DNA of 64,000 nucleotides from Enterococcus hirae ATCC 9790 (GTDB lineage Bacteria > Bacillota > Bacilli > Lactobacillales > Enterococcaceae), in contig NC_018081.1 of the NCBI RefSeq assembly GCF_000271405.2, positions 2,227,678 through 2,291,677 of the forward strand. Reading direction: 5' to 3'. Shown here one piece after another: positions 40,156 through 58,016 of this stretch. The translations under genes and the position numbers were made by a program. Position 1 is the stretch's first letter, and each line of letters opens with the position of its first letter. The notes beneath the pieces were generated by a model. It saw only the letters and a list, made by a program, of their open reading frames with translations. It ran no database searches and was not told where the DNA came from.

Positions 40156-40189
40156 ACACCGTTTATTCGTTTTTAGAGATACTAGAAGA

Positions 40190-40222: not shown

Positions 40223-40672
40223 ATTGTGAAAATGTCTAATGCTGGCCAACCTATTTTTTTGATTTTTTATTAGCTAAAAAGGAGATGATTATCGAGCTGA
40301 TTTTGCCAATAGAATAGAACAGATATTGAAAGAGCAACCGTGCTAAACTGTATTTTTTGATGAATGAAAATGAAAAAATTATGATAATCAAAATTGCATA
40401 GACTATATGTGTCGTTCAATAAAGTGAAAAAAGATTTTCCATCAGTTCTCACTCTATGTATATAATCATTAAGTGCATGTTGTTATTTTTTATCTATATT
40501 TAAATAAAAAACAATACATATATTTTCGTTGTTATAAAAGTATTTATAGAACTATAAATAACAATTGTTTATAAATAAATCGTTCATCAAACCTCCATGT
40601 TGTGATATTATAAACATGAGCTGTGGGTGGCTAGTTTACTCAAGTTCAAGTAAAACAAGGGAGGTGAAAAGA
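40223..40672. other. Gene-free AT-rich region before prdC
   Basis: This should hold the proline reductase promoter. TATTTATAG and CTATAAATA (40541-40560) are perfect arms around AA, and AACAATTGTT (40560-40569) is a 10-bp palindrome right beside it, so an operator is plausible. No sigma-54 (-24/-12) element of the kind used by clostridial prd genes was seen, and no PrdR gene is present. The exact promoter could not be fixed. Confidence 0.5.
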
Positions 40673-41965
40673 GTGGAAAAAATTCTTATACCATTAAAAC
40701 AACATGTAGGCGCTTCATCAAAGAGTATGGTAAAAATAGGCGAATATGTGCAACGTGGACAAAAAATTGCTAAACCAGATGGATTAGGAGCAAACATTCA
40801 TTCTAGCTTTTCAGGTGTTGTATCAGAAGTAACCAACGATCAGATTGTGCTAAAGATTGATGAAAAGCAAAATTTTTCAAGTTATCTTCCTATTCCAGAA
40901 ACATCCTCTTATATTCAAGCAATCAAAGAAGCCGGAATTGTCGGAGCTGGTGGAGCTGGGTTTCCGACAGATATAAAATTATCTTGTGAAATACCAGAAG
41001 GCATCTTTATCGCAAATGGTGCAGAATGTGAAGCTTTATTACTTCACAATGTAAAGCAAATGAAAAGTCAAATCAAACAATTGATTCGTGGAATAAAGTA
41101 TTGCATGAGCATTACGAAAGCACCCAAAGGAATCATTGCCGTTAAAGGAAAATATCGAGAGTTAGTCATACAATTGTTAAAGTTTACCAACAATGAACCG
41201 ACAATAGATGTTTACCAATTACCTGACATCTATCCTGCAGGCGATGAACGTGTAGTGATTCGTGAAGTGTTGAACATCACTTTAGACCCTGGTCAACTAC
41301 CAATCGAAATCGGAGCAGTAGTGGATAATGTTGAAACAATTAAACGCATTGTCGAAGCGATTGAACAGCGAAAGCCATTTATTGATAAAGATCTTACGGT
41401 ATCTGGTCGTGTAAAACAAAAGAAAACAGTCTTTAAAGATGTCCCAATTGGAACACCTGTCAAGCAATTAATTGATCAAGTTGGAGGTTTTATTGAGCCC
41501 CATGGAGAAATTGTGATCGGTGGACCAATGACTGGTCATAGCGGCACGGAAGAAACCCCCATTACGAAAACCAGCGGAGGGGTATTGGTTGCTATGCCAT
41601 TTCCTCAAGAACACCGAAAAATAGGACTATTACTTTGTGAATGCGGCGGTTCAGAAGAAAGAATGACTGAAATAGCTGAAAACATGGGTGCTGAAGTTGT
41701 TGCTACACAACGCTGTAAGCGAATGGTAAAAGTGAATGGAAGATATAGATGTACCTTGCCAGGTATATGTCCAGGACAAGCACAAACAGTCTTTGCTTTG
41801 AAAAAAGCAGGTGCTGAAGTTGTGATGACTGGAACTTGTTCTGATTGAACGAACACCGTTATTGGTGTAGCTCCTAGGTTAGGAGTTCCGGTTTATCATC
41901 ATACAGATCATGTACTTCGGGCAGATGGGCACAGACTATATCGTAAATTACCTACAACGAAATAA
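40673..41965 (+). CDS. prdC: PrdC, RnfC-like electron-transfer selenoprotein of proline reductase
   Basis: This protein of 430 residues, counting UGA (41846-41848, residue 392) as selenocysteine, passes electrons to proline reductase. The N terminus has the RnfC barrel-sandwich segment (KQHVGASSKSMVKIGEYVQR) and GIVGAGGAGFPTDIKL of the NADH/FMN-binding part. The C-terminal part has LCECGG, TQRCKRM, CTLPGICPGQ and finally TCSDU, a CxxU redox pair. After the UGA the frame stays open for 38 codons to TAA 41963. ACACC/GGTGT and CTCCT/AGGAG hairpins right behind the UGA could serve as a SECIS. GTG 40673 follows GGGAGGTG; an upstream in-frame ATG is not credible. It heads the prd operon. Confidence 0.88.
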
Positions 41966-41991
41966 ATTTAAATTTTAGGAGGATTTAACGA

Positions 41992-43887
41992 ATGTCTATT
42001 ACGGCTGAAACTGCCCAAGAACATGCAAAAGATCTAGCTGTACTCTGTTGTCGTGCGGAAGCAGGCACAGTGATTACGCCAGAAAATCTAGAGGACCCCG
42101 CAATTTTTCTTGATCTGGAAGAATCAGGGTTACTTGAATTTTCTGAAGATGTGTTAACAATTGAACAAGTACTTGGTACAACATTAAAAGAAACAACGGA
42201 TGCGTTGATTCCATTGACAAAAGAATTACTGGAAGGTGTATCTGAAGGAATGAAAGAAGTTCATTTAAATGAAAAAAAAGAAGTTGAGACTTCTGAAACA
42301 ATTGCGACGCCAACTCAAGCTGCTTCATCTTTTGTAACAAGTGGTCAGACTATTAAAATTCATATTGCTGAAGGAAAAGGAATTGATTTAGAGCTTCCTT
42401 TAATGATGGCTGCTCAGTTAACCGAAACGGTAAATCCTGCACCGGAATCAATAATTCCTGAGCAAGTAACGCCAATAATACCAGCACCGGTTTTGGGAAA
42501 CTCAAATCAGGTGAAAGAAAAAGTGATTCGTTCTGTACGACATGATCATCTAAAAATTGATCAGGTGATTTTTGGGGAAGAAACAAAAATCGAAGGAACA
42601 ACTTTAATTTTACGAAAAATGACAGAAATTTGTGCTGAAGCAGTTGAACTGGAACAGCTCGTTGAAGATATGACTTTAGAAATCATTACACCAGATAAAT
42701 ACACTGAATATAGTGAAACGATTATGGACGTTCAGCCAATTGCCGCAAAAGTTGAAGGCGATCTTGGGCATGGAATTACCCGAGTACTGGATGGTGTCGT
42801 CATGGTTGTTACAGGGACGGATGCTAATGGAGTTCAAATCGGTGAATTTGGTTCTTCTGAAGGAGAATTAGATCGTAACATTATGTGGGGACGTCCTGGA
42901 GCACCAGATAAAGGAGAAATCTTTATTAAAACCCAAGTGACAATCAAAGAACACGCGAATATGGAACGTCCGGGTCCGCTAGCCGCTCACAAAGCTTCTG
43001 ATTACATCACTCAAGAAATTCGTGAAGCCCTCAAAAAAGCGGATGAATCATTGGTGATACATTCAGAAGAAATTATACAGAAACGTCGAATTGGCAATAA
43101 GAAAGTTTTGATCATCAAAGAAATAATGGGGCAAGGTGCGATGCATGATAATTTGATTATGCCCATCGAGCCAGTTGGAACATTTGGCGCAAAACCAAAT
43201 GTTGACCTTGGCAATTTGCCAATCCTATTGGCACCAACAGAAGTATTAGATGGAGGAATCCATGCGTTAACTTGTATTGGACCGGCTTCGAAAGAAACTT
43301 CACGCCATTATTGGCGGGAACCGCTTGTTAAAGAAGCAATGGCAGATGAAGAAATTGATTTAGTCGGTGTTATGTTCGTCGGCTCTCCACAAGCGAATAC
43401 TGAAAAATATTATGTTTCAAAACGTTTAGGAATGACTGTCGAAGCCATGGACATTGATGGTGCCATTGTAACCACTGAAGGTTTCGGAAATAATCATATT
43501 GATTTCGCTTCTCACATGGAAGAAATTGGAAAACGTGGAATCAAAGTGGTTGGCGACTCTTATAGTGCTGTTCAAGGAGCCTTAGTTGTTGGTAATTCTG
43601 AAATGGGCGCAATGGTTGATAATAATAAATCAAAACAAGGGATTGAAAATGAAATTTTATCAAATAATACCTTGTGTAGAGAAGACGCCATTCGTGATTT
43701 AGCTATGTTAAAAACGTTAATGGGTGGAGGAACAATTAAACCAGCTGAACGTAAATGGAATCCGAATGTCAAACAAAACAACATTGAGATTATCGAAAAA
43801 ACAACAGGAAGAAAAATAGACCTGGAAGAAAATGAGCAATCTTTGCTGAAAAGTAAAAAACGTCAAGAAATTTATGAAAAAGAATAA
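41992..43887 (+). CDS. prdA: D-proline reductase proprotein PrdA
   Basis: This 631-residue proprotein is cleaved into two subunits of D-proline reductase, which reductively opens D-proline to 5-aminovalerate. In the family the cysteine after the cleavage point becomes the pyruvoyl group; here this is HALTCIGPASKETSRHY with Cys428. The N-terminal 170 residues are acidic and Thr/Pro-rich in part. GHGITRVLDGVVMVVTGTDA and IGEFGSSEGELDRNIMWGRP are conserved. AGGAGG precedes ATG 41992. It works with the selenoprotein PrdB. Confidence 0.92.
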   Translation: MSITAETAQEHAKDLAVLCCRAEAGTVITPENLEDPAIFLDLEESGLLEFSEDVLTIEQVLGTTLKETTDALIPLTKELLEGVSEGMKEVHLNEKKEVETSETIATPTQAASSFVTSGQTIKIHIAEGKGIDLELPLMMAAQLTETVNPAPESIIPEQVTPIIPAPVLGNSNQVKEKVIRSVRHDHLKIDQVIFGEETKIEGTTLILRKMTEICAEAVELEQLVEDMTLEIITPDKYTEYSETIMDVQPIAAKVEGDLGHGITRVLDGVVMVVTGTDANGVQIGEFGSSEGELDRNIMWGRPGAPDKGEIFIKTQVTIKEHANMERPGPLAAHKASDYITQEIREALKKADESLVIHSEEIIQKRRIGNKKVLIIKEIMGQGAMHDNLIMPIEPVGTFGAKPNVDLGNLPILLAPTEVLDGGIHALTCIGPASKETSRHYWREPLVKEAMADEEIDLVGVMFVGSPQANTEKYYVSKRLGMTVEAMDIDGAIVTTEGFGNNHIDFASHMEEIGKRGIKVVGDSYSAVQGALVVGNSEMGAMVDNNKSKQGIENEILSNNTLCREDAIRDLAMLKTLMGGGTIKPAERKWNPNVKQNNIEIIEKTTGRKIDLEENEQSLLKSKKRQEIYEKE

Positions 43888-43900
43888 AATAAGGTGCAAA

Positions 43901-44209
43901 ATGGATAGAATCGAAAAATTAAAGTATGTCTCTACTGAACAAATGTTTGAAGGGATACTTGTTGAAGTTCGAGATGCGAGCGTAACTATTGATATCAAAG
44001 GACGACTAGGTCAATTAAAAATTCCGCGGCGCATGATTATTTCAGAGTACGATTTAAAAATAGGACAAGAAGTTGGATTTTTGATGAGTTATCCAGAGGT
44101 TTTGGAAGAAGCAGCCAATACTCATTACGTTGAAGCAATCACAGAACATGAACGTCGACGTTTAAAAAATCAACAGAAGAAAATAAAAATGAGAGAGGAA
44201 AATGAGTAG
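43901..44209 (+). CDS. Small conserved protein of proline reductase clusters
   Basis: This 102-residue protein starts at ATG 43901 (AAGGTG upstream), though the open frame begins a little earlier inside the prdA end. Its YVSTEQMFEGILVEVRDASVTIDIKGRLGQLKIPRRMIIS looks like a small beta-barrel domain, followed by a basic tail. I recall similar short proteins beside prdA and prdB in clostridia (CBO2463/CBO2479-type naming), but no function is known to me. It ends one base before prdB. Confidence 0.65.
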   Translation: MDRIEKLKYVSTEQMFEGILVEVRDASVTIDIKGRLGQLKIPRRMIISEYDLKIGQEVGFLMSYPEVLEEAANTHYVEAITEHERRRLKNQQKKIKMREENE

Positions 44210-44932
44210 ATGAGTTTAACAGTATTCGAAGGATTACAGTCAGAAATTTTTGTACCAATCACACCCAAATCCGTCTTTACGCCCGTTAAAAAAGAGCTGA
44301 AAGAAATGCGGATTGCTTTGGCAACGGCAGCTGGTGTCCACTTAAAAAGTGATACACGCTTTAATTTGGCAGGAGACACAACGTATCGTGAGATTCCAGA
44401 TGGAGTACCAAGTGAAGATTTAATGGTCTCACATGGTGGATATGACAACGCAGACGTTAATCGGGATGTCAATGCAATGTTTCCGATTGACCGATTACAT
44501 GAATTAGTAAAAGACGGCTTTATTAAAGAAGCTGCCCCTGTACATTATGGCTTTATGGGAGGCGGCGGTGACCAAGATGCCTTTAATGAACAGACGGGAC
44601 CAGAAATCGCACAAAAACTCGTAGAAGAAGTTGACGCAGTTGTTTTAACTGCTGGTTGAGGGACCTGTCACAGAACTGCCGTGATCGTGCAGAGAGCAAT
44701 TGAGGAAGCAGGGATTCCTACTATTTTAATCGCCGCATTACCACCAGTAGTACGGCAAAATGGTTCACCTAGAGCTGTAGCACCACGTGTACCGATGGGC
44801 GCTAATGCCGGAGAACCACATAATATTGACATGCAAACGGGTATTTTAAAAGATACTTTAGAAAGCCTAGTTTCAATTGAAACACCAGGGAAAATTGTGC
44901 CATTACCTTATGAATATATCGCTCATGTGTAA
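44210..44932 (+). CDS. prdB: D-proline reductase selenoprotein subunit PrdB
   Basis: This subunit has 240 residues counting UGA (44657-44659, residue 150) as selenocysteine. The sequence LTAG-U-GTCHRTAVIVQRA has the UxxC motif and matches clostridial PrdB, where the selenol attacks the C-N bond of the pyruvoyl-bound proline. The frame is open after UGA to TAA 44930, and GFMGGGGDQDAFNEQTGPEIA is family-typical before it. The bases after UGA include a CAC/GTG-based hairpin that may be a SECIS. Ordinary stop-codon reading would split this gene in two; the conserved context argues for recoding. Confidence 0.93.
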
Positions 44933-44944
44933 AGAGGGATCAGC

Positions 44945-45682
44945 ATGCAAGGAGAAACATTAAAGATGAAAGTTTTCCATATGGAAAAAGTTTCCATAGG
45001 AAATCAATTTAAGCTTGATCACAATCAACTACAGATAAAAACTGAATTTGATTGTCTGTGTGAGGATGTCAAATCCTTGACGATCCGATTGTTAGAGCCA
45101 GATCAGTTAGACCTAAAAACAAATACTATCATGGATATTTTACCAATTTCTGCTAAAGTATTAGGCGTTTTGGGGACGGGTATCACCCATACATTAACGG
45201 GAGTGTCGGTCATAATGACCGGCACAATCGATGAGGGTGAACAGCTCCATGAGTTTGGTTCTTCTGATGGTGTATTGCGTGATCATTTATTTTTAAATCG
45301 ACCGGGCACACCTAACGCAGAGGATTACATTATTTTGATTGACTTACTTGTCAAGAAAGGAACACCTTTCGATCGTGAGTTATGTTTAAAATTGTTTCGG
45401 ATAGTTGACAATTATCTGCAGGAAATCCGAGAACAATTAAAGTTGCTAGATGGTAAGGAAGCAACGGAAACACATATCTATGAAGAAAAAAGAAATCCGG
45501 GAAAGCCAAAAGTGACGTTGGTCAAGCAGGTAGCTGGCCAAGGTGCGATGTACGATATGTTATTATTTCCAGATGAACCTAGTGGGTTTAAGGGTGGTCA
45601 TTCGATTATCGATATGAATAATATGCCCATCTTTTTATCTGCCAATGAGTATCGTGATGGTGCCATTCGTTCAATGGTCTAA
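44945..45682 (+). CDS. prdD: PrdD, paralogue of the N-terminal part of PrdA
   Basis: This 245-residue protein aligns with residues about 190-425 of PrdA: AKVLGVLGTGITHTLTGVSVIMTG, LHEFGSSDGVLRDHLFLNRPGTP and VKQVAGQGAMYDMLLFPDEP. It ends in DGAIRSMV, exactly where PrdA reads DGGIHALT just before its cleavage cysteine. PrdD is known in clostridial clusters; it may help mature or organise the reductase. It lies 12 bases after prdB. Confidence 0.85.
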   Translation: MQGETLKMKVFHMEKVSIGNQFKLDHNQLQIKTEFDCLCEDVKSLTIRLLEPDQLDLKTNTIMDILPISAKVLGVLGTGITHTLTGVSVIMTGTIDEGEQLHEFGSSDGVLRDHLFLNRPGTPNAEDYIILIDLLVKKGTPFDRELCLKLFRIVDNYLQEIREQLKLLDGKEATETHIYEEKRNPGKPKVTLVKQVAGQGAMYDMLLFPDEPSGFKGGHSIIDMNNMPIFLSANEYRDGAIRSMV

Positions 45683-45703
45683 TTGTTAGAAAAGGGGATT
45701 TTT

Positions 45704-46184
45704 ATGGGAATAGGACCATCAACTAAAGAAACTTCGATGCACCTTTTTAAAGATCCTTTACTGGATGTTTTAAGCAAAGATCCTGACATTGATTTCCAAG
45801 GTGTTATTATTATTGGCACACCTCAAAGCAATGAAATGAAGCATCTAGTCGGACAACGAACAGCTACTTGGCTAGAAGCGATGGCTACAGATGGCGTTGT
45901 TTTATCAACAGATGGTTGGGGAAATTCAGACATCGATTTTGCCAATACCCCTAGAAGAAATAGGTTGTCGTGGCCTCAGTGTTATTGGGCTCAAATTTAT
46001 TGGGAAACAAGCCAAGTTTGTCGTAGAAAATGATTATACAAAATATGTGCTGGATTTTAATAAATCACAAGCAGGGATTGAAACGGAAGTGGTTGGAGAA
46101 AATACGATCACTTTCTATGATGCAGTTAAAGCGCTCGCTTTTATAAAACTAAAGATGCGTAAAGATAATCAAAAATTGAAGTAA
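45704..46184 (+). pseudogene. prdE: PrdE, paralogue of the C-terminal part of PrdA, frameshifted
   Basis: From ATG 45704 (GGGGA upstream) the frame reads MGIGPSTKETSMHLF, aligning to PrdA just after its cleavage point, then through DGWGNSDIDFANT. An extra C in the C4 run at 45948-45951 throws it out of frame. With C3 it continues as LEEIGCRGLSVIGLKF, exactly like PrdA HMEEIGKRGIKVVG, to TAA at 46182 (about 160 residues, the clostridial PrdE size). As written, translation stops at 46031. No classical programmed frameshift signal is evident, so it is a mutation or a sequencing error. Confidence 0.8.
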
Positions 46185-46212
46185 CGTGGAGGTTAGTATG
46201 AAAGTATAAAAA

Positions 46213-47214
46213 ATGATATCAGTAGTAGATACCCATACAGCTGGTGAAGCCGCTCGGTTAATTGTAGGAGGCATTCCTAAATTTCATGGAAAAACGATGG
46301 CGGATAAAAAAATATACCTGGAAACACAAGCAGATGATTTACGTAAAATGCTAATGCATGAACCACGAGGGCATAAAAATATGTTCGGGGCTTTTATTTG
46401 TGAACCGGTTCATGATGAGGCAGACTACGGGATTATTTTCATGGATTCTGGTGGCTATTTAAATATGTGCGGTCACAACACCATTGCGGCAATGACAGCA
46501 GCTGTAGAATTGGGCTGGGTAGATGTAGGAGAAGGCACCCGTGTGGTTAAAGTAACGCAAGATACACCTGCGGGGATTGTTTGCGGAGAGGTTCGTCTGG
46601 ATGAAGATTACTCTGCGGAATCAGTCTCTTTTGAAAACGTGGAATCCTTTCTATATAAAGAAAATGTGGCAGTGAATGTGCCCGATATTGGGACAGTTCA
46701 TGTGGATATTTCTTTTGGCGGAAGTTTTTTTGCCATATTAAAAGCCGAAGAAGTAGGTTTAACCATTGAACCGAAGAATGCGTCAAAATTTACTGAAGTG
46801 GGGCTAAAAATTCGCGAAGCGATTAATCAAACGATTGAGATCCAACATCCTCGGTTAAAACATATTAACACCGTTGATTTAGTCGAATTTTATGGTCCTG
46901 CTAAAAGTCCTGAAGCTACTTATCAAAATGTCGTGGTATTCGGGGATGGACAAGTTGATCGTTCACCTTGCGGAACGGGAACGAGTGCTAAATTAGCAAC
47001 TTTGTATGCAAAAAATGAGTTGAAAATTGGTGAAAGTTTTGTTTATGAAAGTATTTTAGGAACGATGTTTAAGGGAGAAATTACAAAGGAAACACGTGTA
47101 GGAAACTATCAAGCGATTATTCCCAAAGTGACGGGATCTGCTTATATTACAGGATTTAATCAATTCCTTGTCGATCCTAAAGACTCATTAAAAAATGGAT
47201 TTTTACTTGATTAA
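46213..47214 (+). CDS. prdF: Proline racemase
   Basis: This 333-residue enzyme interconverts L- and D-proline, feeding the reductase. The first catalytic cysteine is in SGGYLNMCGHNTIAAMTAA and the second in DRSPCGTGTSAKLA, the racemase pair; VDTHTAGEAARLIVGG and LMHEPRGHKNMFGAF are family-typical. ATG 46213 is the only start giving the full frame, but GGAGG (46189-46193) is spaced for the ATG at 46198, which stops after three codons (ATG AAA GTA TAA). That TAA may be a point mutation in the original fourth codon. Confidence 0.9.
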   Translation: MISVVDTHTAGEAARLIVGGIPKFHGKTMADKKIYLETQADDLRKMLMHEPRGHKNMFGAFICEPVHDEADYGIIFMDSGGYLNMCGHNTIAAMTAAVELGWVDVGEGTRVVKVTQDTPAGIVCGEVRLDEDYSAESVSFENVESFLYKENVAVNVPDIGTVHVDISFGGSFFAILKAEEVGLTIEPKNASKFTEVGLKIREAINQTIEIQHPRLKHINTVDLVEFYGPAKSPEATYQNVVVFGDGQVDRSPCGTGTSAKLATLYAKNELKIGESFVYESILGTMFKGEITKETRVGNYQAIIPKVTGSAYITGFNQFLVDPKDSLKNGFLLD

Positions 47215-47330
47215 AATACACGGTATAACCATCCAAAGTGTGAATTGAATTCTCTAGTCCTAGCCATTAACAGATGGTTACATAAAAAATGATGGGTTAG
47301 TAAAACTCTGCTTACTATTAAGGAGGTATC

Positions 47331-48203
47331 ATGGTACAACTACTGTTGGGTTTATTAAGCGTTTTATTACTCTATTTCTTATTCTTTTTTGTTCTCGACT
47401 TACTTGCAAATAAAGGAAATTGGGGTGGAGGAAATTATCTTATTTCTGGAACAATTGGGTTAATTACCGATTTTTTAGATACATTAGGGATTGGTAGTTT
47501 TGCGCCAACAACCATGTTACTAGAATTTACCAAGCAATTAGATAACGATCGACAATTACCAGGAACGCTCAATGTGGCACACTCTATTCCGGTAATCATT
47601 GAAGCTTTTATTTTCATTACTGTTGTTAAAGTATCACCTATTACTCTGTTTTCATTAGTTGCAGCAGCAATTGTGGGTTCGTTTGTGGGTTCGAAAACAG
47701 TCAGTAAGCTACCTGAAAAAAAGGTGCAGTTTTTTATGGGACTTGCTCTGATTGTGACAGCAATTTTAATGGGGCTAAAACAAGCTGGAATGCTGGATCT
47801 CTTAGGCTCTGGAAATGAAGCGACTGCTTTAACAGGTCTTAAGCTAATCATCGGCGTCATCGGTAATTTCCTCTTAGGTGCATTAATGACGATTGGCGTA
47901 GGTTTATATGCACCATGTATGGCATTAGTATACATGTTGGGGTTAAGTCCGCTTGTTGCTTTTCCTATTATGATGGCTTCTTGCGCAGGATTGATGCCCG
48001 TTGCTTCAGGTAACTTTATTAAATCTGGTGATTATGCGCGTAAAGTTAGTTTGGCAATTACGATTGGTGGAGTGATTGGGGTAATTATTGCTGTTAAATT
48101 TGTCACAAGCTTAGATTTGAATATGCTGACTTGGGTAATCATTGCTGTAATTATTTACTCAGGAATTACATATATGCGAAAAGGAATGTTTTCTAAAAAA
48201 TAG
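47331..48203 (+). CDS. TauE/SafE family membrane permease
   Basis: This 290-residue polytopic protein of the sulfite exporter TauE/SafE (DUF81) family has about eight helices and internal repeat symmetry, with GSFVGSKTVSKLPEKKVQFFMG as the family marker after the first half. Relatives move sulfite, sulfonates or other small anions. It lies between prdF and the sel genes with AAGGAGG before ATG 47331. Export of 5-aminovalerate or import of a selenium or sulfur oxyanion are possible roles; sequence does not decide. Confidence 0.8.
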   Translation: MVQLLLGLLSVLLLYFLFFFVLDLLANKGNWGGGNYLISGTIGLITDFLDTLGIGSFAPTTMLLEFTKQLDNDRQLPGTLNVAHSIPVIIEAFIFITVVKVSPITLFSLVAAAIVGSFVGSKTVSKLPEKKVQFFMGLALIVTAILMGLKQAGMLDLLGSGNEATALTGLKLIIGVIGNFLLGALMTIGVGLYAPCMALVYMLGLSPLVAFPIMMASCAGLMPVASGNFIKSGDYARKVSLAITIGGVIGVIIAVKFVTSLDLNMLTWVIIAVIIYSGITYMRKGMFSKK

Positions 48204-48229
48204 AAAAGCTTAATCTAGTAGCAAAATGT

Positions 48230-48269
48230 GAAGGAGTGGAAAGAACTGTACAGCCACTTCTTCATTTTT
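48230..48269 (+). terminator. Terminator of the prd operon
   Basis: GAAGGAGTGG and CCACTTCTTC pair with one G-U around 14 bases and are followed by ATTTTTA. It separates prd-tauE from the sel genes. Confidence 0.8.
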
Positions 48270-48408
48270 AGTACACCAAACTAGCATAGTTATTTTAATG
48301 ATTTGCCCGCTATTTTCTGATTGTTGGTGTAACTATAGAAAATGGAACAGTAAGCGGCAGAGGAAAAGTCATCAATTATTACACTATATGAAAAGGAAGT
48401 GGATGCCA

Positions 48409-49452
48409 ATGAAAAAAGAAATCGAACAATTAATTATTTGTGGTGGATGTAACGCTAAGATTGGTCCTGGAAATCTAGGGAATATTCTAGCAGACCTCCC
48501 TAAATCCCAAGATGAAAAATTGTTAGTGGGCTTTGATGCAACAGATGACGCAGCCGTTATTAAATTGACCGATGAATTAGCAGTTATTCAAACGTTAGAC
48601 TTTTTTCCTACTATGGTGACAGATCCTTATTTATTTGGCAAAATTGCTGCTGCCAATGCGATGAGTGATGTTTATGCGATGGGAGGGGATGTATTATCTG
48701 CCTTAAATATTGTTGCTTTTCCTGAAGAAAAAGAACTACAGGTTTTAAAAGAGATTTTAAGAGGTGGGGCTGAAAAAGTTCAAGAAGCAGGTGGAATCTT
48801 ATCAGGTGGGCACTCAATCCATGACCGTTCAGTCAAATATGGACTTTCTGTAACTGGCACAATTCATCCAAACAATATTTACAAAAATAATACTTGTCAA
48901 GAAGGAGATCACTTAATCTTAACAAAACCTCTAGGTGTAAGCATTATCACCATTGGTTATAGCGCCGGGGCAATAACCAAAGAAGGGTTTGCCAAAGCAA
49001 CAAAAAGTATGGAAACCTTAAATAAATATGCGATGGCTATCATCAGAAAATATCCAATCACTAGTTGTACCGACGTAACAGGATTTGGGTTAGCAGGACA
49101 TCTTCATGAAATGTTACATGACAATTTTTCAGCTGAAATCTATTCAGAAAAACTGCCATTTTTTGAAGAAGCTTATGAAGGAGCAAAAGCCTTTCTTTTT
49201 ACTGCTGGAGGACAACGAAACCGAAATTTTATGGAAAAAAAGATGGCCTTTTATGTCGATGACTTAGGGATCGAAGAGTTGCTATATGATCCACAGACAT
49301 CTGGAGGATTATTGGTAAGTATCCCAGCTAAAGAAGCAAAAAAATTAGAAGAAGAGCTGAAATCAGCCAATATCTTAGCCAAAGATTTTGGCGTTGTTAC
49401 GAAAAAAAGACAGCAGAAATCATGGTTTATTAAGAAAAAATTGTTCGATTAG
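48409..49452 (+). CDS. selD: Selenide, water dikinase (selenophosphate synthetase)
   Basis: This 347-residue enzyme makes selenophosphate from selenide and ATP for SelA. The N-terminal CGGCNAKIG carries the catalytic Cys14 and Lys17 (Cys instead of Sec). ATP and Mg sites are [43 protein letters not shown] and [11 protein letters not shown]; the C-terminal [16 protein letters not shown] is a SelD signature. ATG 48409 gives the family N terminus, with ATG 48403 as an alternative; the longer upstream frame is not credible. It opens the sel operon. Confidence 0.93.
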
Positions 49453-49501
49453 TCTAACAAACTGATCCCATGATTAACTACACATGGAAAGGAGAATCAA
49501 A

Positions 49502-50101
49502 ATGGTTAAAATTAACGCATTGGGAAAAGTATGTCCCCTTCCAGTGATTGAAACAAAGAAAGCTTTGGAAGAAAACGATACAGTAGAAACAACTGTCGAT
49601 AATGAGATTGCTGCACAAAATCTAAAAAAAATGGCGGGACAACTAGGTTATGATTATCAAGTAGAGCAAAATGATGCACAATCGTTTACTGTACGTATCT
49701 CCAAGAAAAAAGGAGAGGTAGCTTCTATTTATGAACAAGAACTTACAAGAGAAAATGATATTGAAGACAATTATATAGTTATTGTCGACACGAATACGAT
49801 GGGGCAAGGGTCGAAAGAATTAGGGAAACAATTATTAAAAATGTTTATTTATTCTTTAACCGAACAACCTGATTTGCCCGAAAAAATCATTTTCTACAAT
49901 GGTGGGGTCCATTTAGTAAGCGACAACTCGGATTCCTTGGAGGATTTACAGATTCTTGCGGAAAATGGGATAGAAATTTATGCTTGTGGAGCCTGTCTTA
50001 ACTATTATAATCTCAGTGAAAAATGTAAAGTCGGTGAAGTGACCAATATGTATCATATTATTGAAATGATGCGAAAATCTAAAAAAATCATCAAACCTTA
50101 A
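49502..50101 (+). CDS. yedF: YedF-type selenium metabolism protein (TusA plus DsrE-like)
   Basis: This 199-residue protein has an N-terminal TusA/SirA domain with the reactive cysteine in LGKVCPLPVIETKKAL (Cys about 9) and a C-terminal DsrE-like domain with TMGQGSKELGKQLLKMFIYSL and ACGACLNYYNLSEKCKVGEV. Such proteins are regularly linked to selD and are thought to carry selenium as a perselenide. GGAAAGGAG precedes ATG 49502. The role is inferred from family and neighbours. Confidence 0.85.
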   Translation: MVKINALGKVCPLPVIETKKALEENDTVETTVDNEIAAQNLKKMAGQLGYDYQVEQNDAQSFTVRISKKKGEVASIYEQELTRENDIEDNYIVIVDTNTMGQGSKELGKQLLKMFIYSLTEQPDLPEKIIFYNGGVHLVSDNSDSLEDLQILAENGIEIYACGACLNYYNLSEKCKVGEVTNMYHIIEMMRKSKKIIKP

Positions 50102-50111
50102 GGAGTAAACA

Positions 50112-50369
50112 ATGAAGTCATATGGAGTGGTATTATTTCATTCGACACGTGAAGCAATGAGAGCTGAGCTGATGTGCCAATCAGCTAAACTATCTGTAAG
50201 AATCATTCCTACACCCGAAAAAATATATCTTAGCTGTGGTTTTTCTTTAAAATTTCCGCTAGAAGCTGAAAATCAGATACGTCATATTTTAGCTAAAAAT
50301 AATGTGTCATCAGAAGGTTTTTATAAAGCGCTTCAAGTTGGATTGGATGTAACGTATTACTTATTATAA
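50112..50369 (+). CDS. DUF3343 protein, putative Se/S carrier
   Basis: This 85-residue protein of the DUF3343 family shows YGVVLFHSTREAMRAELMC at the N terminus and the IYLSCGFSLKFPL segment with a conserved cysteine. The family is described as a putative selenium or sulfur carrier and is usually found beside selD, yedF and a cysteine desulfurase, as here. It lies 10 bases after yedF and 12 before selB. Confidence 0.78.
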   Translation: MKSYGVVLFHSTREAMRAELMCQSAKLSVRIIPTPEKIYLSCGFSLKFPLEAENQIRHILAKNNVSSEGFYKALQVGLDVTYYLL

Positions 50370-50381
50370 GGGGTAAAAGAA

Positions 50382-52277
50382 ATGGCAAATATTGTAATTG
50401 GAACAGCTGGGCATATTGATCATGGAAAAACAACATTGATCAAAGCGCTGACTGGAATAGATACTGACACAACAAAAGAAGAAAAAAAAAGGGGCATGTC
50501 GATTAATCTAGGATTTGCTTACTTAAATTTACCAAATCAACAACGTGTGGGTTTCGTAGATGTTCCTGGCCATGAAAAATTTATTAAAAATATGGTTGCT
50601 GGACTACCTGGTCTTAATCTTATTTTATTAGTCATTGATGCTAGTGAAGGAATCATGCCTCAAACAAAAGAGCATATTGATATTTTGAATTTATTAGGAA
50701 TCCACCATTTTTTAATTGTATTAACTAAAATTGATACGATTGATGCTGAATTGAAAGAACTAGTCATCGAAGATATACGTGATCAATTACTTCACACGCC
50801 TTTAGAAAAAGCGGAAATAATTGAAACCGATGCCATTAGCGGAAAAGGGATCAAACAATTACTAAAAAAAATCGAAGCCTACACGGAGCAAACATCAGAG
50901 CAAGTAAGTAGTGGAACACCAAGGTTAAATATCGATCGGGTTTTCAGTGTAAAAGGCTTCGGTACAGTAGTTACAGGCACTTTGTTGGAAGGGGAACTAA
51001 CCGTTGGAGAAAACTGCTATCTCTACCCAAATAAGCGAAAAGTTCGGATAAGAAATCTGCAGGTACATGAAAATAACGTTCAAAAAGCATATGCTGGACA
51101 ACGAACTGCTATCAATTTAGCAAACATTACCCGTGAAGAAGTCACGCGCGGGGATGTTCTATCAACCGCGGATTCTTTAGAGGAAAGCTGGATGTTGGAT
51201 GTTAAGGTAACTTGCTTGGCAGGGACGGATGGGGGAATTAATCTATGGGATCGGGTTAGAGTGTTGATCGGAACAAAAGAAATAATGGCTCGTACTGTTC
51301 CATTAGGATTAGATTGGATTGGGCCAAACGAAGAAGGCTTTTTGCAGTTAAGATTAGAAGAAAAAGTTTCTGTAAAAGAAAAAGATCGTTTTATTCTACG
51401 CTCTTATTCACCCATGCATACGATTGCTGGAGGCGAAGTCTTAAACGCCGTTCCAAAAAAACATCGCCGATTCAAGCAGGCGATTTTAGAAAGCTTAAAA
51501 GCAAAAGAAAATGGCAATCTAAACAGTATGATAATTGATTTTATGTTAAATAAGAAACAGCCATTTACAGTAGAAAAAGAATTGTTGGCCTATCTGGGTG
51601 TCCCTCTTGATCAACTAAGCCATTCATTAGAAGAACTACAGGGAAAAAATCAAATCTTCTTTACCTCTTGTGGGTTTTTACTTTATGAAAGATATCAACA
51701 ATTAGCAGGAAAAGCACAAAAGATCTTAGAAGAGTATCACAAAAAATATCGTCTACGGGATGGTATGCCTTTAGAAGAATTTCGTTCTAAAATACGAAAT
51801 GGCTTGACCGAAAAAGAAGTTTTCGTCTTGATTCAATTATTAAAAAAATTCAACGTAATCAAAGAACAACAGAAACGATTATCTGTTTATGATTTTCAAG
51901 TACAATTTAATAGCTATCAGCAAGTCGCCAAACAAAAAATTGAACGTTACCTAAAAAACAGTGGTTATATGCCGATAAAAAAAGAAGAGTTAGCCCTTTT
52001 AGACAAAAATGCTGAAGAAGTATTGGAAGCTTTAGATGCCACCAGCGCTGTTTTTTTAACCCACGAATATGTTCTATCAGGAAAGATTTACCAGCAAGCT
52101 ATTCAACAAATCCAGACTTATATCAAGAAAAACAAGAAAATGACACTGGCTGATTTTCGTGATATGACAAACTCGAGCCGAAAAGCTTCCATGCTTATTC
52201 TAGAATCAATCGATAAACTTGGCATCACGAAACGAGTAGAAAATTATCGGATTTTAGGGAAACAAGAAGGAGACTAG
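50382..52277 (+). CDS. selB: Selenocysteine-specific elongation factor
   Basis: This 631-residue GTPase brings Sec-tRNA-Sec to the ribosome at UGA codons that carry a SECIS. The GTP site reads GTAGHIDHGKTTL (P loop), DVPGHEKFI (G3) and LTKID (G4). Domains II and III resemble EF-Tu, with VFSVKGFGTVVTGTLLEG, and the C-terminal third holds winged helices that bind the SECIS hairpin. Length is typical. It is the decoding factor for prdB and prdC. Confidence 0.94.
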   Translation: MANIVIGTAGHIDHGKTTLIKALTGIDTDTTKEEKKRGMSINLGFAYLNLPNQQRVGFVDVPGHEKFIKNMVAGLPGLNLILLVIDASEGIMPQTKEHIDILNLLGIHHFLIVLTKIDTIDAELKELVIEDIRDQLLHTPLEKAEIIETDAISGKGIKQLLKKIEAYTEQTSEQVSSGTPRLNIDRVFSVKGFGTVVTGTLLEGELTVGENCYLYPNKRKVRIRNLQVHENNVQKAYAGQRTAINLANITREEVTRGDVLSTADSLEESWMLDVKVTCLAGTDGGINLWDRVRVLIGTKEIMARTVPLGLDWIGPNEEGFLQLRLEEKVSVKEKDRFILRSYSPMHTIAGGEVLNAVPKKHRRFKQAILESLKAKENGNLNSMIIDFMLNKKQPFTVEKELLAYLGVPLDQLSHSLEELQGKNQIFFTSCGFLLYERYQQLAGKAQKILEEYHKKYRLRDGMPLEEFRSKIRNGLTEKEVFVLIQLLKKFNVIKEQQKRLSVYDFQVQFNSYQQVAKQKIERYLKNSGYMPIKKEELALLDKNAEEVLEALDATSAVFLTHEYVLSGKIYQQAIQQIQTYIKKNKKMTLADFRDMTNSSRKASMLILESIDKLGITKRVENYRILGKQEGD

Positions 52278-52278
52278 T

Positions 52279-53403
52279 ATGACTATTTATTTAGATAATG
52301 CAGCTACGACAGTCCAAAAGCCGGTTTGTATGAAACAAACAATCCTAGATGTGCTTGAAAGTGAGAGGTATGGCAACCCAGCTCGTGGCGCTCATAGCTA
52401 TTCCATTCGTGCTTATCAATTAATAGAAATGGCAAGAGATACATTAAAAAATTTTTTTCATACCGGGGATTTATATGAAATTATTTTTTCTGGAAGCGTG
52501 ACTATTGCTCTTAATGCAGTATTAAAAGGGTTCATTCAAGCTGGTGATCATGTATTGACCACAAGTTGGGAACACAATTCCGTGCTGCGACCACTCTATC
52601 AATTAGAAAAACTAGGCGTTTCCTACGACATTATCAGTAGTCATCCGATCACTGGACAGTTGAATTATGAAGAATTTACTGAAAAATTAAACGCAAAAAC
52701 CAAAGTAGTGGTCTGCAATCATGCAAGTAATGTGACAGGGAATCTTTTAGATATTGAATGGATAAAACGTTTTTGCCACAAACATCAGCTGTATTTAATC
52801 TTAGATATTTCTCAAACAGCTGGACATCTACCAATTGACTTAAGTGATGGGAAGGTCGCAGCGGCTTGTTTCACTGGACACAAAGCGTTACATGGACCAC
52901 AAGGAACTGGGGGCATTTGTATTCACAAAAAACTGAAACTTACACCGATAATAACTGGTGGTGATGGTATGAAGTCCTTCTCTAAGGAGCAGCCGGATGA
53001 ATTGCCAGCAATGTTGGAGGCTGGGACAGCAAATGTGCCAGGAATTGCTGGATTAGCAGCCAGTGTAGGTTGGCTAATGTCCCAAGAGACACCATCATTG
53101 GGAAACTACTTCTACCAAGAAGCGACGAAGATTTCAGAATTAACGTTTTATGGTGATTTCACGAAAGAGCATATAGACGTTTTTTCGTTGAATATCAGAT
53201 CTGCAGAATCAGCTTTAATCAGTGACATTCTGTGGGAAGAGTTTGGCATTGCCACACGTTCAGGCTACCATTGTTCACCGCTAATACATCAAGATTTAGG
53301 AACTAAAAATACTGGAACTGTTCGAGTATCCTTATCCCGTTTTACAACAGAAGAAGAAATAGAAAAAACCATAAAGGCGTTGAGAATAATTGCAAAACGA
53401 TAG
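52279..53403 (+). CDS. Class V aminotransferase: cysteine desulfurase / selenocysteine lyase
   Basis: This 374-residue PLP enzyme has YLDNAATTVQKP at the N terminus, the PLP lysine in FTGHKALHGPQGTGG and the catalytic cysteine loop TRSGYHCSPLIHQ. It would release sulfur or selenium from cysteine or selenocysteine, supplying SelD via the YedF/DUF3343 carriers. It begins one base after selB. Whether it prefers selenocysteine cannot be read from sequence. Confidence 0.86.
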   Translation: MTIYLDNAATTVQKPVCMKQTILDVLESERYGNPARGAHSYSIRAYQLIEMARDTLKNFFHTGDLYEIIFSGSVTIALNAVLKGFIQAGDHVLTTSWEHNSVLRPLYQLEKLGVSYDIISSHPITGQLNYEEFTEKLNAKTKVVVCNHASNVTGNLLDIEWIKRFCHKHQLYLILDISQTAGHLPIDLSDGKVAAACFTGHKALHGPQGTGGICIHKKLKLTPIITGGDGMKSFSKEQPDELPAMLEAGTANVPGIAGLAASVGWLMSQETPSLGNYFYQEATKISELTFYGDFTKEHIDVFSLNIRSAESALISDILWEEFGIATRSGYHCSPLIHQDLGTKNTGTVRVSLSRFTTEEEIEKTIKALRIIAKR

Positions 53404-53417
53404 AAAGCAGGTAAACG

Positions 53418-54817
53418 ATGGCTAGAGAAATACAACGACGATTAGCAGATTTGCCTTCAGTGGATCGTTTATTAAAAACTCCTGAATTGCAAATATTAGA
53501 AAAGAAGTATTCTTACGGAGTAGTCAAACAACAGGTACAAAGTGTTTTAGAGCAAACTAGAAAAACTGTTTTAAAAGAAGAATTGTTACCTCCAGCGATT
53601 GAAGAACTCTGTATTCAAGTGATTGAAAAAGTGAAACAACGAACATATTCATTACAAAAAGTAATTAATGGGACAGGTACAATTCTGCATACAAATTTAG
53701 GACGTTCCTTACTTAGTAAGAAAATTGAGGAACAATTAAAGACAATAAGTTTTTCCTATTCAAATTTAGAAATGGATTTAACTAGTGGCAAGAGAGGTAC
53801 TAGATACAATCATTTAACGCATATTCTAAAAAAACTTACTGGAGCAGAAGACGTCTTAGTGGTGAATAATAACGCAGCAGCTATTATGTTAATTCTTGAT
53901 ACTTTGGCTACTGATAAAGAAGTATTGGTTTCTCGAGGGGAACTTGTTGAAATAGGAGGGTCCTTTCGTATCCCAGAGGTAATTACCGAAACAGGTGGGA
54001 AAATTAGAGAAGTAGGGACAACCAATAAAACGCATATTAGAGATTACCAACAGGCTTTGACTTCTGAAACTGGAGCGATTTTAAAAGTCCATACCAGTAA
54101 TTATCGAATCATTGGATTTACAGAAACTCCTTACTTATCAGAGTTAGCTCTCTTAGCACAAAAACATCAAGTCCCGTTAATCAATGATCTGGGTAGCGGT
54201 CTACTCATTGACATGCGACGCTTTGGCTTACCGTATGAACCGACTGTTCGAGAAGTAATCGAGCAAGGGTGTGATGTGGTCTCCTTTAGTGGAGATAAAT
54301 TATTAGGCGGACCACAAGCCGGAATTATCGTAGGTAAAAAAACGTATATTCAGAGGATGAAAGAAAATCAACTACTGCGTGCATTAAGAGTCGATAAAAT
54401 GACTCTAAGTGCATTAGAAGCAACTTTAGAACTTTATCTTGATGAATAAGAAGCCATTCGATCCTTGCCTACTTTGCAAATGCTATCGGATAAGATCGAA
54501 AATTGTTTGAATCGAGCCCAAATATTAGCTGAAAAGTTAAAAAAATCGAGCAACTCGAAGTCTCTATCGAAAAAGATTATAGTACGGTTGGTGGTGGAAC
54601 GTATCCAGAAAGCTTATTACCTACCTATGCAGTAACAGTAAAAAGTAAGCAATGCCATGCGGAAGAACTGCAACGAAGACTAAGAAAAGGAATTGTTCCA
54701 GTGATTAGTCGGGTAAAAAATGAGCGAAACTATTTAGATATGCGCACGATTTTTGAAGAAGAACTTCATCAGGTGTTCGTCAGTTTAGAAAAGATTTTTT
54801 GTGAGGAAATAACATGA
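53418..54817 (+). pseudogene. selA: L-seryl-tRNA(Sec) selenium transferase, disrupted
   Basis: SelA converts Ser-tRNA-Sec to Sec-tRNA-Sec. The first frame (343 residues) shows VINGTGTILHTNLGRSLL, LEMDLTSGKRGTRYNHL, VNNNAAAIMLIL and the PLP lysine in SFSGDKLLGGPQAGI, then meets TAA at 54447. Beyond it the frame continues recognisably (EAIRSLPTLQMLSDKIENCL) until the A7 run at 54539-54545, where one A is missing. With A8 it goes on through IEQLEVSIEKDYSTVGGGTY to TGA 54815, overlapping the next start by ATGA, for about 466 residues in total. So there are two lesions: a stop codon (probably GAA to TAA) and a one-base deletion. The truncated product lacks the C-terminal domain and is probably inactive. 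Confidence 0.85.
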
Positions 54818-55302
54818 AATTAAAGAAAGAATTTGTGGTTGTTTCACACTGCATCTTGAATCAACATGCGGTGATACCTGGATGGGAGCGGGCTCGTGGT
54901 GCTTTTCCTTTGGCCATTTCTTTATTAAATCAAGGCGTTGCGTTGCTACAATTGCCTTGTCCTGAATTTTTGACCTTAGGAAAAGAGAGACCACCAATGA
55001 CTTATCAAGAATATGTTGCTATACCAGGCTATCGTCAAAAATGTCAAAGTATGTTGCAACCAGTCATTCAACAAATCAAAGAGTACCAAGCGAATGATTA
55101 TCGCTATTTGGGAATCATCGGGATCAATGAAAGTCCTAATTGTTCCATCTCAGCACAGCGAGGCGTACTAATGGAAGAGTATTTTGAATTATGTAAGAAT
55201 CATGGGATTGTTAATCCTTATTTTGAAGTTCCAACTTGGTATACAGAAGAATCACAAGGCGATTTATATCAGAAATTAAAACTATTTTTAGAAGGAAAGT
55301 AA
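54814..55302 (+). CDS. TudS-related putative desulfidase (CD3072-type)
   Basis: This 162-residue protein has SHCILNQHAVIPGWERA at the N terminus, LLQLPCPEFLTLGKERPP in the middle and GINESPNCSIS near residue 111. Three cysteines in this layout recall the DUF523/TudS family, in which they bind an iron-sulfur cluster that removes sulfur from thiouracil. Similar genes, as I recall, lie near selenium genes in Clostridioides. The start overlaps the end of selA, so it belongs to the sel operon. Substrate is unknown; a seleno- or thio-compound is plausible. Confidence 0.72.
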   Translation: MKLKKEFVVVSHCILNQHAVIPGWERARGAFPLAISLLNQGVALLQLPCPEFLTLGKERPPMTYQEYVAIPGYRQKCQSMLQPVIQQIKEYQANDYRYLGIIGINESPNCSISAQRGVLMEEYFELCKNHGIVNPYFEVPTWYTEESQGDLYQKLKLFLEGK

Positions 55303-55305
55303 ACG

Positions 55306-55848
55306 ATGAATAATAAAATGAAAATATTGACTTTATGTGCAATGGCCGTTGTTTTAAATGTTGTTTTAGGTGAGGCTGTTTCACTAATGAAAATCCCCTT
55401 ATTATTTTTAGATACGATGGGAACGATTTATATTTCAACCAATTTTGGTATGAGTTATGGGGTAATGACTGGGATTGCCACTAATTTATTAATGGGGATC
55501 ATCAGTGGGCCGTTGGCTGTTCCTTTTGTATTCGTAAATATTGTTGTAGCAATTATCTGTTCTTTACTAGCGAAGAATGGATTTTCTTACAAAAAAGCGC
55601 TAATAGCAGGGGGACTATTAGCCGTTGTTTGTCCAATGATCGGTGCGCCGATCCGTTTAGCTTTATTTGGTGGTTTTACCGGTTCAGGAACGGACATCCT
55701 CATTTTTGCTTTCAAGGCTTCCGGTAAAGAAATGATCACTGCAACTTATTGGGCAACTGTTGCAGGAAATATTGTGGATAAGATGCTTTCTTGTTTACTC
55801 GTTGCTTGGTTTATGAAACGTTTACCGCAGCGTATCCTAGTAAAATAA
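55306..55848 (+). CDS. ECF transporter S component (CD3073-type)
   Basis: This 180-residue membrane protein has about six helices. Its FGMSYGVMTGIATNLLMGIISGP and LGEAVSLMKIPLLFLDTMGT fit the substrate-binding (S) subunits of energy-coupling factor importers, which pair with shared EcfAAT elsewhere. It lies three bases after the TudS-like gene and closes the sel operon. Its substrate is likely to be related to selenium or sulfur metabolism, but this is inference from context. Confidence 0.75.
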   Translation: MNNKMKILTLCAMAVVLNVVLGEAVSLMKIPLLFLDTMGTIYISTNFGMSYGVMTGIATNLLMGIISGPLAVPFVFVNIVVAIICSLLAKNGFSYKKALIAGGLLAVVCPMIGAPIRLALFGGFTGSGTDILIFAFKASGKEMITATYWATVAGNIVDKMLSCLLVAWFMKRLPQRILVK

Positions 55849-55898
55849 AAAGAGAACGACTAACAGATATTAAAGCTAGTCTAGTCTTTTATAACTAC

Positions 55899-55956
55899 AA
55901 ACATTCTAGCATTTGATATTGATTGAACAAACGAAAAATGTTAGAATGTTTTTATT
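55899..55956 (+). terminator. Terminator of the sel operon, just before selC
   Basis: AACATTCTAGCATTT and AAATGTTAGAATGTT (55899-55913 and 55936-55950) pair with one mismatch around 22 bases and are followed by TTTATT. It ends three bases before the tRNA. Confidence 0.75.
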
Positions 55957-55958
55957 AG

Positions 55959-56055
55959 GGGAGTGGATGGGTTCTGGTGTTCCCTCTGGTCTTCAAAACC
56001 AGTATGAGGAGTTAAGAGCTTCTTGGGTAGGTTCGATTCCTACACATTCCCGCCA
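55959..56055 (+). tRNA. selC: tRNA-Sec (UCA anticodon)
   Basis: This 97-nt tRNA has the selenocysteine layout. The 5' GGGAGUGG faces ACAUUCCC in a long acceptor stem (the innermost pair is a mismatch). The anticodon stem CUGGU/ACCAG holds loop CUUCAAA, so the anticodon is UCA. The long variable arm GAGGAG/CUUCUU and T arm GUAGG-UUCGAUU-CCUAC follow, with G73 and encoded CCA. It reads UGA as selenocysteine in prdB and prdC. An independent promoter was not identified with confidence. Confidence 0.92.
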
Positions 56056-56068
56056 ATTGAATACATAC

Positions 56069-56127
56069 AAAGCTAAAAACATTGATACAGAGCCGTTCTG
56101 TTGATGTTTTTAGCTTTATTTTTTTGT
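56069..56127 (+). terminator. Terminator of selC
   Basis: AAAGCTAAAAACAT pairs perfectly with ATGTTTTTAGCTTT, with further pairing inside (ACAGA/TCTGT), then A and T8. Confidence 0.88.
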
Positions 56128-56129
56128 CG

Positions 56130-56273
56130 CCACTGCATTTCCACTGCATTTGATTATTTTTCGAGGTAGTTCATTGCTTGATCACTGTTTTCATCAAGTG
56201 TAAGAAAGGAACATTCTGCTTCTCGCTTTTTATCAATGCCCATGTGATTGAAATCACATTTTAGTCTCGACAT
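56130..56273 (-). other. Possible 3' remnant of an integrase next to selC
   Basis: On the minus strand a 39-codon frame runs from ATG 56273 to TAA 56154 (KKREAECSFLTLDENSDQAM in its middle). Behind its stop, two copies of AAATGCAGTGG stand in tandem (56130-56152). I recall such tandem ATGCAGTGG copies just behind integrases of Firmicute elements, and tRNA 3' ends are usual attachment sites, so a deleted element is plausible. The peptide itself has no clear integrase motif. Confidence 0.3.
56242..56259. promoter_or_regulatory. CRP/FNR-like palindrome
   Basis: ATGTGATT and AATCACAT are perfect 8-bp arms around GA. The core TGTGATTGAAATCACA fits the CRP/FNR-family consensus TGTGA-N6-TCACA exactly. 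It lies about 180 bases before metN. Confidence 0.5.
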
Positions 56274-56321
56274 GGCTATTTTTCCATGCTATATTTAATT
56301 CGAAAAGAAGAAATTAAAATA

Positions 56322-56337
56322 TAGATGTGCGCATCTA
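56322..56337 (+). promoter_or_regulatory. Inverted repeat before metNIQ
   Basis: TAGATG and CATCTA are perfect arms around TGCG, about 100 bases before metN. No S-box or Met T-box leader is present, so control by a DNA-binding regulator is the simplest guess. Confidence 0.35.
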
Positions 56338-58004: not shown

Positions 58005-58016
58005 GGAGTAAACTTC

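Follow-up and report, generated by a model that had tools for sequence, protein, structure and literature searches.

Genes of the prd-sel block

Analysis of a 64,000-nucleotide (nt) stretch of the Enterococcus hirae ATCC 9790 chromosome (contig NC_018081.1, positions 2,227,678-2,291,677, forward strand; hereafter "the window", whose own positions serve as coordinates throughout) identified a run of genes for D-proline reductase (prd) adjoining genes for selenocysteine (Sec) synthesis and decoding (sel). A single strand (+) of segment 40673-56051 carries the prd genes, the sel genes, the genes for CD3072 and CD3073 family proteins and a tRNA-Sec, for a total of 17 genes from prdC to selC, 16 of them (prdC to CD3073) protein-coding. 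As argued below, this island appears to have been gained by E. hirae and to be out of action in this strain, where selA and prdE are broken, with the species as a whole being polymorphic; we put the probability of this reading at roughly three in four. Gene names follow NCBIfam (TIGR/NF) models with curated cut-offs, or Pfam for DUF3343 and the TauE family; tRNA-Sec was called by ARAGORN and by Rfam RF01852.

40673..41965, + strand: prdC, electron transfer selenoprotein (TIGR04481, 577.8 bits, cut-off 490; conserved UGA)
41992..43887, + strand: prdA, D-proline reductase proprotein (TIGR04480, 959.4 bits, cut-off 700)
43904..44209, + strand: CBO2463-domain small protein between prdA and prdB (NF041553, 95.4 bits; same position in relatives)
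44210..44932, + strand: prdB, catalytic selenoprotein (TIGR04483, 399.4 bits, cut-off 300)
44945..45682, + strand: prdD, homologous to the middle part of PrdA, intact (TIGR04482, 358.1 bits, cut-off 320)
45704..46184, + strand: prdE, frame-shifted near 45950 (open frame to 46033, rest in another frame to 46184)
46213..47214, + strand: prdF, proline racemase family (NF010576, 519.3 bits, under the cut-off of 556)
47331..48203, + strand: TauE/SafE-family membrane protein (PF01925, 44.3 bits; adjoins prdF in relatives)
48403..49452, + strand: selD, selenophosphate synthetase (TIGR00476, 359 bits)
49502..50101, + strand: yedF (TIGR03527, 212.3 bits)
50112..50369, + strand: DUF3343, putative Se/S carrier protein (Pfam PF11823, Se_S_carrier, 77.8 bits)
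50382..52277, + strand: selB, Sec-specific elongation factor (TIGR00475, 372.6 bits)
52279..53403, + strand: cysteine desulfurase-like class V aminotransferase (TIGR01977, 359.2 bits, cut-off 377)
53418..54817, + strand: selA, broken (open frame 53418-54449 with premature TAA; remainder frame-shifted)
54814..55302, + strand: CD3072-family TudS-related putative desulfidase (NF045597, 159.7 bits)
55306..55848, + strand: CD3073-family putative ECF transporter S component (NF045596, 210.5 bits)
55958..56051, + strand: selC, tRNA-Sec with UCA anticodon (ARAGORN; RF01852, 68.4 bits)

Scores lie above the curated NCBIfam cut-offs for PrdA, PrdB, PrdC, PrdD, SelD, YedF, SelB, SelA, CD3072 and CD3073, and every gene named in an earlier reading of the window made without database searches (the sequence-only reading) was recovered in its place. 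Since PrdF scores under its cut-off, "proline racemase family" is a safe description and "proline racemase" only a likely one. The desulfurase-like protein scores 277.3 bits with the SclA model (cut-off 525). PrdA residues 187-427 match the PrdD model, the match ending directly before Cys428, and the Thr427-Cys428 bond is likely the site of the pyruvoyl-forming cut. No PDB entry is related in sequence to PrdA at an E value of 0.001; the nearest protein database entry to PrdA (P0001), 99% identical, is labelled Enterococcus hirae. The assignment to this species is also supported by NtpA of the genome, which over 579 residues is identical to PDB chain 5zea_A (V-type sodium ATPase catalytic subunit A), an E. 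hirae structure.

Lesions in selA and prdE

Damage is seen in two of the 17 genes. The selA frame stops at a TAA (54447-54449) past position 337 of the 455-position model; homology runs on beyond the stop, with a change of frame, and can be followed to about 54790 with the model and to 54817 in an alignment with a full-length relative (P0122). As a result, the window SelA ends at residue 343, whereas full-length SelA aligns to a solved structure from 24 to 460. The open frame of prdE encodes 109 amino acids (aa) instead of the approximately 159 expected, due to a frame shift near position 45950. The other 14 of the 16 protein genes are open, with no visible lesion. These data contradict the description of the locus, in the sequence-only reading, as a complete D-proline reductase and Sec machinery. 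Genome-wide, no second selA was found over the cut-off: besides the remnant, the search returned one distant match, of 57.8 bits (cut-off 267.9). The genome gave no match to SelU or to YqeB either, so that no other known use of SelD was found.

Database entries 99% identical to the window SelA comprise a 343-aa form (77 member sequences) and a 466-aa form (305), while PrdE entries comprise a 109-aa form (17 members) and a 159-aa form (82), each 99% identical over the matched part (75% for the 159-aa form); the counts are of sequences, not genomes. The short forms differ from those in the window by two substitutions in SelA (P0121) and one in PrdE (P0241). As other records hold broken forms of the same length, the breaks cannot be put down solely to a fault in this assembly. 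Judging from their identity, the database SelA and PrdE entries would come from E. hirae. Whole and broken forms of both genes thus appear to coexist, probably making the pathway polymorphic across the species.

UGA codons, hairpins and the prdC leader

The Sec codon of PrdC is the UGA at 41846-41848 (codon 392, motif CSDU, of the CxxU type) and that of PrdB the UGA at 44657-44659 (codon 150, motif UGTC, of the UxxC type). Both are in frame, bearing out the two UGA-encoded selenoproteins of the sequence-only reading. Codon alignments were built from 42 sources, two of which were dropped for each gene as giving no match covering 80% of the query. In 39 of 40 rows UGA occupies the Sec position of PrdB, and in 38 of 40 that of PrdC; it is conserved across Bacilli and Clostridia. 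The exceptions carry Cys: one genome of the family (G095) in both proteins and Ligilactobacillus salivarius in PrdC. The Terrisporobacter PrdC, also with Cys, was among the sources dropped from the prdC alignment. Near-copies having been removed (leaving 34 rows for prdB and 35 for prdC), synonymous variability in the 14 codons past the UGA was 0.266 in prdB, against a gene mean of 0.473 (rank 7 of 227), and 0.180 in prdC, against 0.500 (rank 9 of 417). Each UGA is followed by a selenocysteine insertion sequence (SECIS) hairpin, and prdC is preceded by a conserved leader:

41870..41886, + strand: SECIS hairpin of prdC (7 pairs kept in 19/19 distinct sequences)
44676..44692, + strand: SECIS hairpin of prdB, with bulged U (4 outer pairs invariant in 18 distinct sequences)
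40600..40672, + strand: promoter-like -10 and conserved 5′ leader of prdC, with possible hairpin (from alignment)

The two inner pairs of the prdB hairpin are kept in 17 of the 18 distinct sequences. Most hairpin pairs being invariant, support comes from conservation and not from covariation. Folding energy supports the prdC hairpin (z -1.96 and -2.18 for the region); taken alone, it gives no support to the prdB hairpin (z +1.20, or +0.25 for a shorter piece). The case for both hairpins rests on conservation.

The prdC leader is common to 15 of 17 aligned Enterococcus copies. It is present in most loci of avium-group enterococci as well as in E. hirae, and absent from E. alishanensis, the second copy of E. 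pallens and 665A. Its core, GGGYGGCTRRTTTRCTCAAGTTC, occurs solely in prd loci among the 1.42 Mb fetched, once per prd locus. A 12-pair fold can be drawn with no pair broken and no double-sided change across the copies; no Rfam family matches the leader. A sigma-54 promoter was considered and discarded, matches being neither enriched nor near prdC. Promoter and terminator scans returned no more matches than did shuffled sequences. Sites resembling those of CcpA and CodY were noticed by eye 5′ of the prdC promoter in some avium-group loci; none is evident in E. hirae.

Insertion site and distribution

Comparison with sister species delimits the insertion and places an ABC transporter within it:

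39935..59105, no strand: insertion compared with sister species (maximum extent), flanked by cfa and a PepSY lipoprotein gene
56411..58865, + strand: MetNIQ-like ABC transporter, three genes, inside the insertion (MetN/MetI/MetQ models below cut-off)

Among 14 other genomes of the genus, 13 have cfa, and in 11 of these cfa is directly followed by the PepSY gene and pyrD, defining an empty site; in the other two, neither PepSY nor pyrD lies within the 1.5 kilobases (kb) fetched. The prdA gene is found in one of the 15 genomes of the genus. Judged solely from Cfa identity, E. hirae appears nested within the genus (88% to the nearest member, 74% to the farthest). The 15-kb block outlined in the sequence-only reading stands as regards the genes inside 40673..56055. 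Its limits do not, as the insertion (between 39934 and 59106) extends beyond them and includes the MetNIQ-like transporter. The permease of this transporter has no close relative in the 14 sister genomes (best 44%); kinship of the transporter to MetNIQ of E. raffinosus was considered and dropped, identities being only 27-44%.

Within the family, a PrdA match is found in 24 of 105 genomes, 23 of them over the cut-off; the corresponding figure for genomes sampled from the order is 22 of 395 over the cut-off. SelB exceeds its cut-off in 23 of the 105 family genomes, all of which match PrdA. The 24th genome with PrdA (G095, C1:410000-425000) has no SelB over the cut-off and is the one with Cys in both PrdB and PrdC. 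In the genus of the avium group, 19 of 20 genomes match PrdA, indicating that the pathway is a settled trait there; the rarity attributed to it in the sequence-only reading does not extend to this group.

Phylogenetic position of the prd and sel genes

Trees were built for PrdA (40 rows), for SelB (23 rows, long-branched) and for five Prd proteins joined end to end (34 rows, after exclusion of six taxa that were long branches or near-copies). In all three, the window falls with the enterococci of the avium group, with support of 100/99 for PrdA, 100/99 for SelB and 100/100 for the joined proteins (all starred branches). This speaks against the direct clostridial origin implied by the sequence-only reading. 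In the PrdA and joined trees, three of the four Vagococcus rows come next after the window and the avium group, V. allomyrinae sits with E. termitis and Listeria farberi, and the Clostridia form one side of a branch (92/99 for PrdA; 100/100, starred, for the joined proteins). The SelB tree, with one clostridial row, does not resolve the order of Vagococcus and Clostridia. PrdA is 77-82% identical to avium-group homologues and 61-68% to those of clostridia with full matches; two further matches, on clostridial plasmids, are at about 48%.

Mean identities were calculated between E. hirae and five avium-group species and between the avium group and three Vagococcus species (V. allomyrinae not used). 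For core genes, the two values are 87.9/80.9 (gyrB), 88.1/81.9 (part of gyrA) and 71.8/59.7 (part of recF). For prd genes, they are 78.0/71.1 (prdC), 80.4/75.6 (prdA), 90.6/87.4 (prdB), 72.5/63.6 (prdD) and 78.1/77.5 (prdF); for sel genes, 77.6/73.5 (selD) and 68.3/59.6 (selB), the selD and selB figures resting on three avium-group species and selD on two Vagococcus. E. hirae is slightly farther from Vagococcus than is the avium group in 7/7 prd/sel proteins but slightly nearer in 3/3 core genes. This offset fits a faster-evolving block in E. hirae, in which a later transfer might go unseen, or else a donor that branched off early.

Related loci and their mobility

Synteny in other enterococci, a check proposed with the sequence-only reading, is borne out by E. 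gilvus megaplasmid pCR1A, where the order is the same: prdC-A-CBO-B-D-E-F-hypothetical-selD-yedF-DUF3343-selB-desulfurase-selA-CD3072-CD3073. The E. raffinosus plasmid pCX012922 has a TauE-family gene where E. gilvus has the hypothetical protein and, unlike E. hirae, carries other genes between prd and sel. PrdA from these two avium-group plasmids is approximately 80% identical to that of E. hirae, and the same prdC leader is present. In contrast to the chromosomal E. hirae block, avium-group prd-sel genes lie on plasmids of 0.92-1.19 Mb with different neighbours, selC being found 7-8 kb past CD3073. Likewise, prdE is of normal length on the avium-group plasmids, and selA in E. gilvus, whereas both are broken in E. 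hirae. Just 5′ of prd, two avium-group megaplasmids carry genes for Xaa-Pro peptidases, a prolyl iminopeptidase and a peptide transporter, a set that suggests a supply of proline from peptides.

Outside the enterococci, Clostridium (Acetoanaerobium) sticklandii is described as having the same PrdA/B/C/D/E/F set, with Sec at codon 392 of PrdC, as in E. hirae, and at codon 152 of PrdB, against 150 here (PMC3091704). There, prd is part of a genome with eight selenoproteins, whereas E. hirae has its Sec genes next to prd and a broken selA. In Terrisporobacter, prd is reported together with selA, selB, selD and selC on a single 21-kb element (plasmids pTM1, pTP1 and pTG1), prdF being chromosomal (PMC10564238); this plasmid differs from the E. 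hirae island in being circular, in its gene order and in having Cys in PrdC. Eight circular Terrisporobacter plasmid records of about 21 kb contain prdA and tRNA-Sec, to which selA, selB and selD are added in the one that was read. Region R1 of L. salivarius pMP1046A brings together prd, sel genes and selC, as in E. hirae, but its PrdA and SelB are only 62% and 43% identical and its PrdC carries Cys. In a 2014 report the prdB gene of this region is called a probable pseudogene, the region being read as one for L-/D-proline interconversion (PMC4165912). We observe that pMP1046A prdB holds an in-frame UGA and keeps the hairpin sequence conserved elsewhere. A 97-bp match (97.9% identity) between L. 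salivarius and E. hirae had raised the possibility that selC moved separately and recently between the two. This was rejected because tRNA-Sec genes from nine other loci are already 83.3-95.1% identical (96.9% for L. salivarius by the same measure), so that conservation is enough to account for the match.

Thus, prd genes with tRNA-Sec are found on plasmids of E. raffinosus, E. gilvus, L. salivarius and Terrisporobacter. Furthermore, E. termitis and Listeria farberi have 14,738 bp in common at 95.8% identity (positions 7151-21881 and 7151-21880 of the fetched loci). The shared stretch runs from before tRNA-Sec through prd, selD, yedF, DUF3343, selB and the desulfurase gene into selA, where both loci end; the left 7.1 kb of the two loci show no match. 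Given this identity and the unmatched left flanks, we read the stretch as having passed recently from one family to another. That Sec pathways as such are transferred has long been known, as noted in PMC1794560 and PMC5029168.

Probable gain and decay of the island

Gain of the pathway, selC included, as one block is the simplest account of an island sitting at a site that is empty in sister species; most likely, the donor was an enterococcal lineage akin to the avium group and not yet sampled, a direction of transfer that we infer. Several observations weigh against this reading. No integrase is present among the genes identified, there are no long flanking repeats (between the junction zones, only A/T-rich repeats of 11-13 nt are found) and the G+C content of the island lies within the range of the window. 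As regards the polymorphism, the database entries pointing to it bear no species name. The branching order (Vagococcus, (E. hirae, avium group)) is that which vertical descent would give and which taxonomy would predict for the species, and the distances of the seven prd/sel proteins scale like those of gyrB and the gyrA and recF parts: relative to Vagococcus, E. hirae-avium divergence is at least that of the core genes. With divergence on a par with the species split, the distances themselves reveal no transfer. Under vertical descent, the island would go back to an ancestor of these enterococci and would have been lost from almost every other species in the genus. This would require several precise losses, considering that E. 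hirae appears nested by Cfa identity alone, that the island is found in 1 of 15 genomes of the genus and that cfa is joined to PepSY in 11 of 13. The Vagococcus offset (7/7 prd/sel proteins, with the 3/3 core genes going the opposite way) also bears on this point, as a later transfer could seem old if the block had changed faster. On balance, the clean empty site and the apparent nesting of E. hirae lead us to favour gain by transfer, and we regard old vertical descent as unlikely, though a serious contender. The sequence-only reading, which had proposed transfer of a whole pathway including its code-expansion genes, finds support in the block at the empty site and in the single prdA of the genus, not so its direct clostridial step; the distances also speak against any recent transfer. 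A direct move from a clostridium to E. hirae strikes us as barely credible: while the enzyme has been characterised in clostridia (PMC3091704) and plasmid-borne prd-sel exists there, the window PrdA is closer to avium-group proteins (77-82% against 61-68%) and starred branches part the window from Clostridia in both Prd trees.

As for the state of the island, a complete and working pathway would agree with the 14 of 16 protein genes that are open and with the conserved UGA context. It is nonetheless improbable given the premature TAA and later frame shift in selA, the frame shift in prdE and the lack of a second selA over the cut-off; SelA stopping at 343 falls well short of the structural alignment, which extends to 460. 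Sequencing errors could be invoked, as the frame shifts are located within or close to base runs and the assembly, if that of ATCC 9790, dates from about 2012. We consider this very improbable, since P0121 (343 aa) and P0241 (109 aa) carry the same breaks while being two and one substitutions apart from the window proteins, and since selA holds a nonsense codon as well.

The E. hirae island would encode a D-proline reductase of the same chemistry as that of C. sticklandii. In that organism, PrdF is described as making D-proline, which is bound by the pyruvoyl group of PrdA; the selenolate of PrdB could then open the proline ring, with release of 5-aminovalerate (PMC3091704). PrdC is proposed there to be the carrier of electrons from NADH, and a stabilising role is suggested for PrdD and PrdE (PMC3091704). 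In a lactic acid bacterium with the whole pathway, the reaction may serve as an electron sink that frees NAD+. In ATCC 9790, with selA broken, Sec charging, UGA readthrough and proline reductase are all probably lost: tRNA-Sec would stay serylated, the UGA in prdB and prdC would act as a stop and no proline reductase would form. Loss of SelA function and inactivity of the pathway are deduced here from the gene sequences.

If gain followed by decay is the right reading, a much-used strain of E. hirae carries a selenoprotein pathway that is dead there but may still be in use in strains with whole alleles, and the trait would be wrongly predicted by an annotation that merely registers "selA" and "prdB" at this locus. 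Strains of the two kinds would form a natural pair for studying the role of proline reduction and selenium in a gut lactic acid bacterium, and E. hirae might be a competitor of Clostridioides difficile for proline. The locus would also offer a clean case of code expansion gained as a cassette and lost. A broader proposal, for which we see the odds as even, is that prd-sel constitutes a portable genetic-code-expansion cassette of Bacillota, moving between families as a unit and dying in place, that Sec decoding in Enterococcaceae serves only prd, and that E. hirae is giving up the expanded code. The parts are known ones in a decaying state and no new mechanism is involved; the interest lies in the state of the island and the habits of the cassette. 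No literature on prd in E. hirae was among the matches listed, in a search with subscription journals outside its reach; the one paper in that search to mention both E. hirae and proline reductase is, by its title, about C. difficile biofilm.

Elsewhere in the window, an M-box magnesium riboswitch is found at 5021-5186 (153.3 bits).

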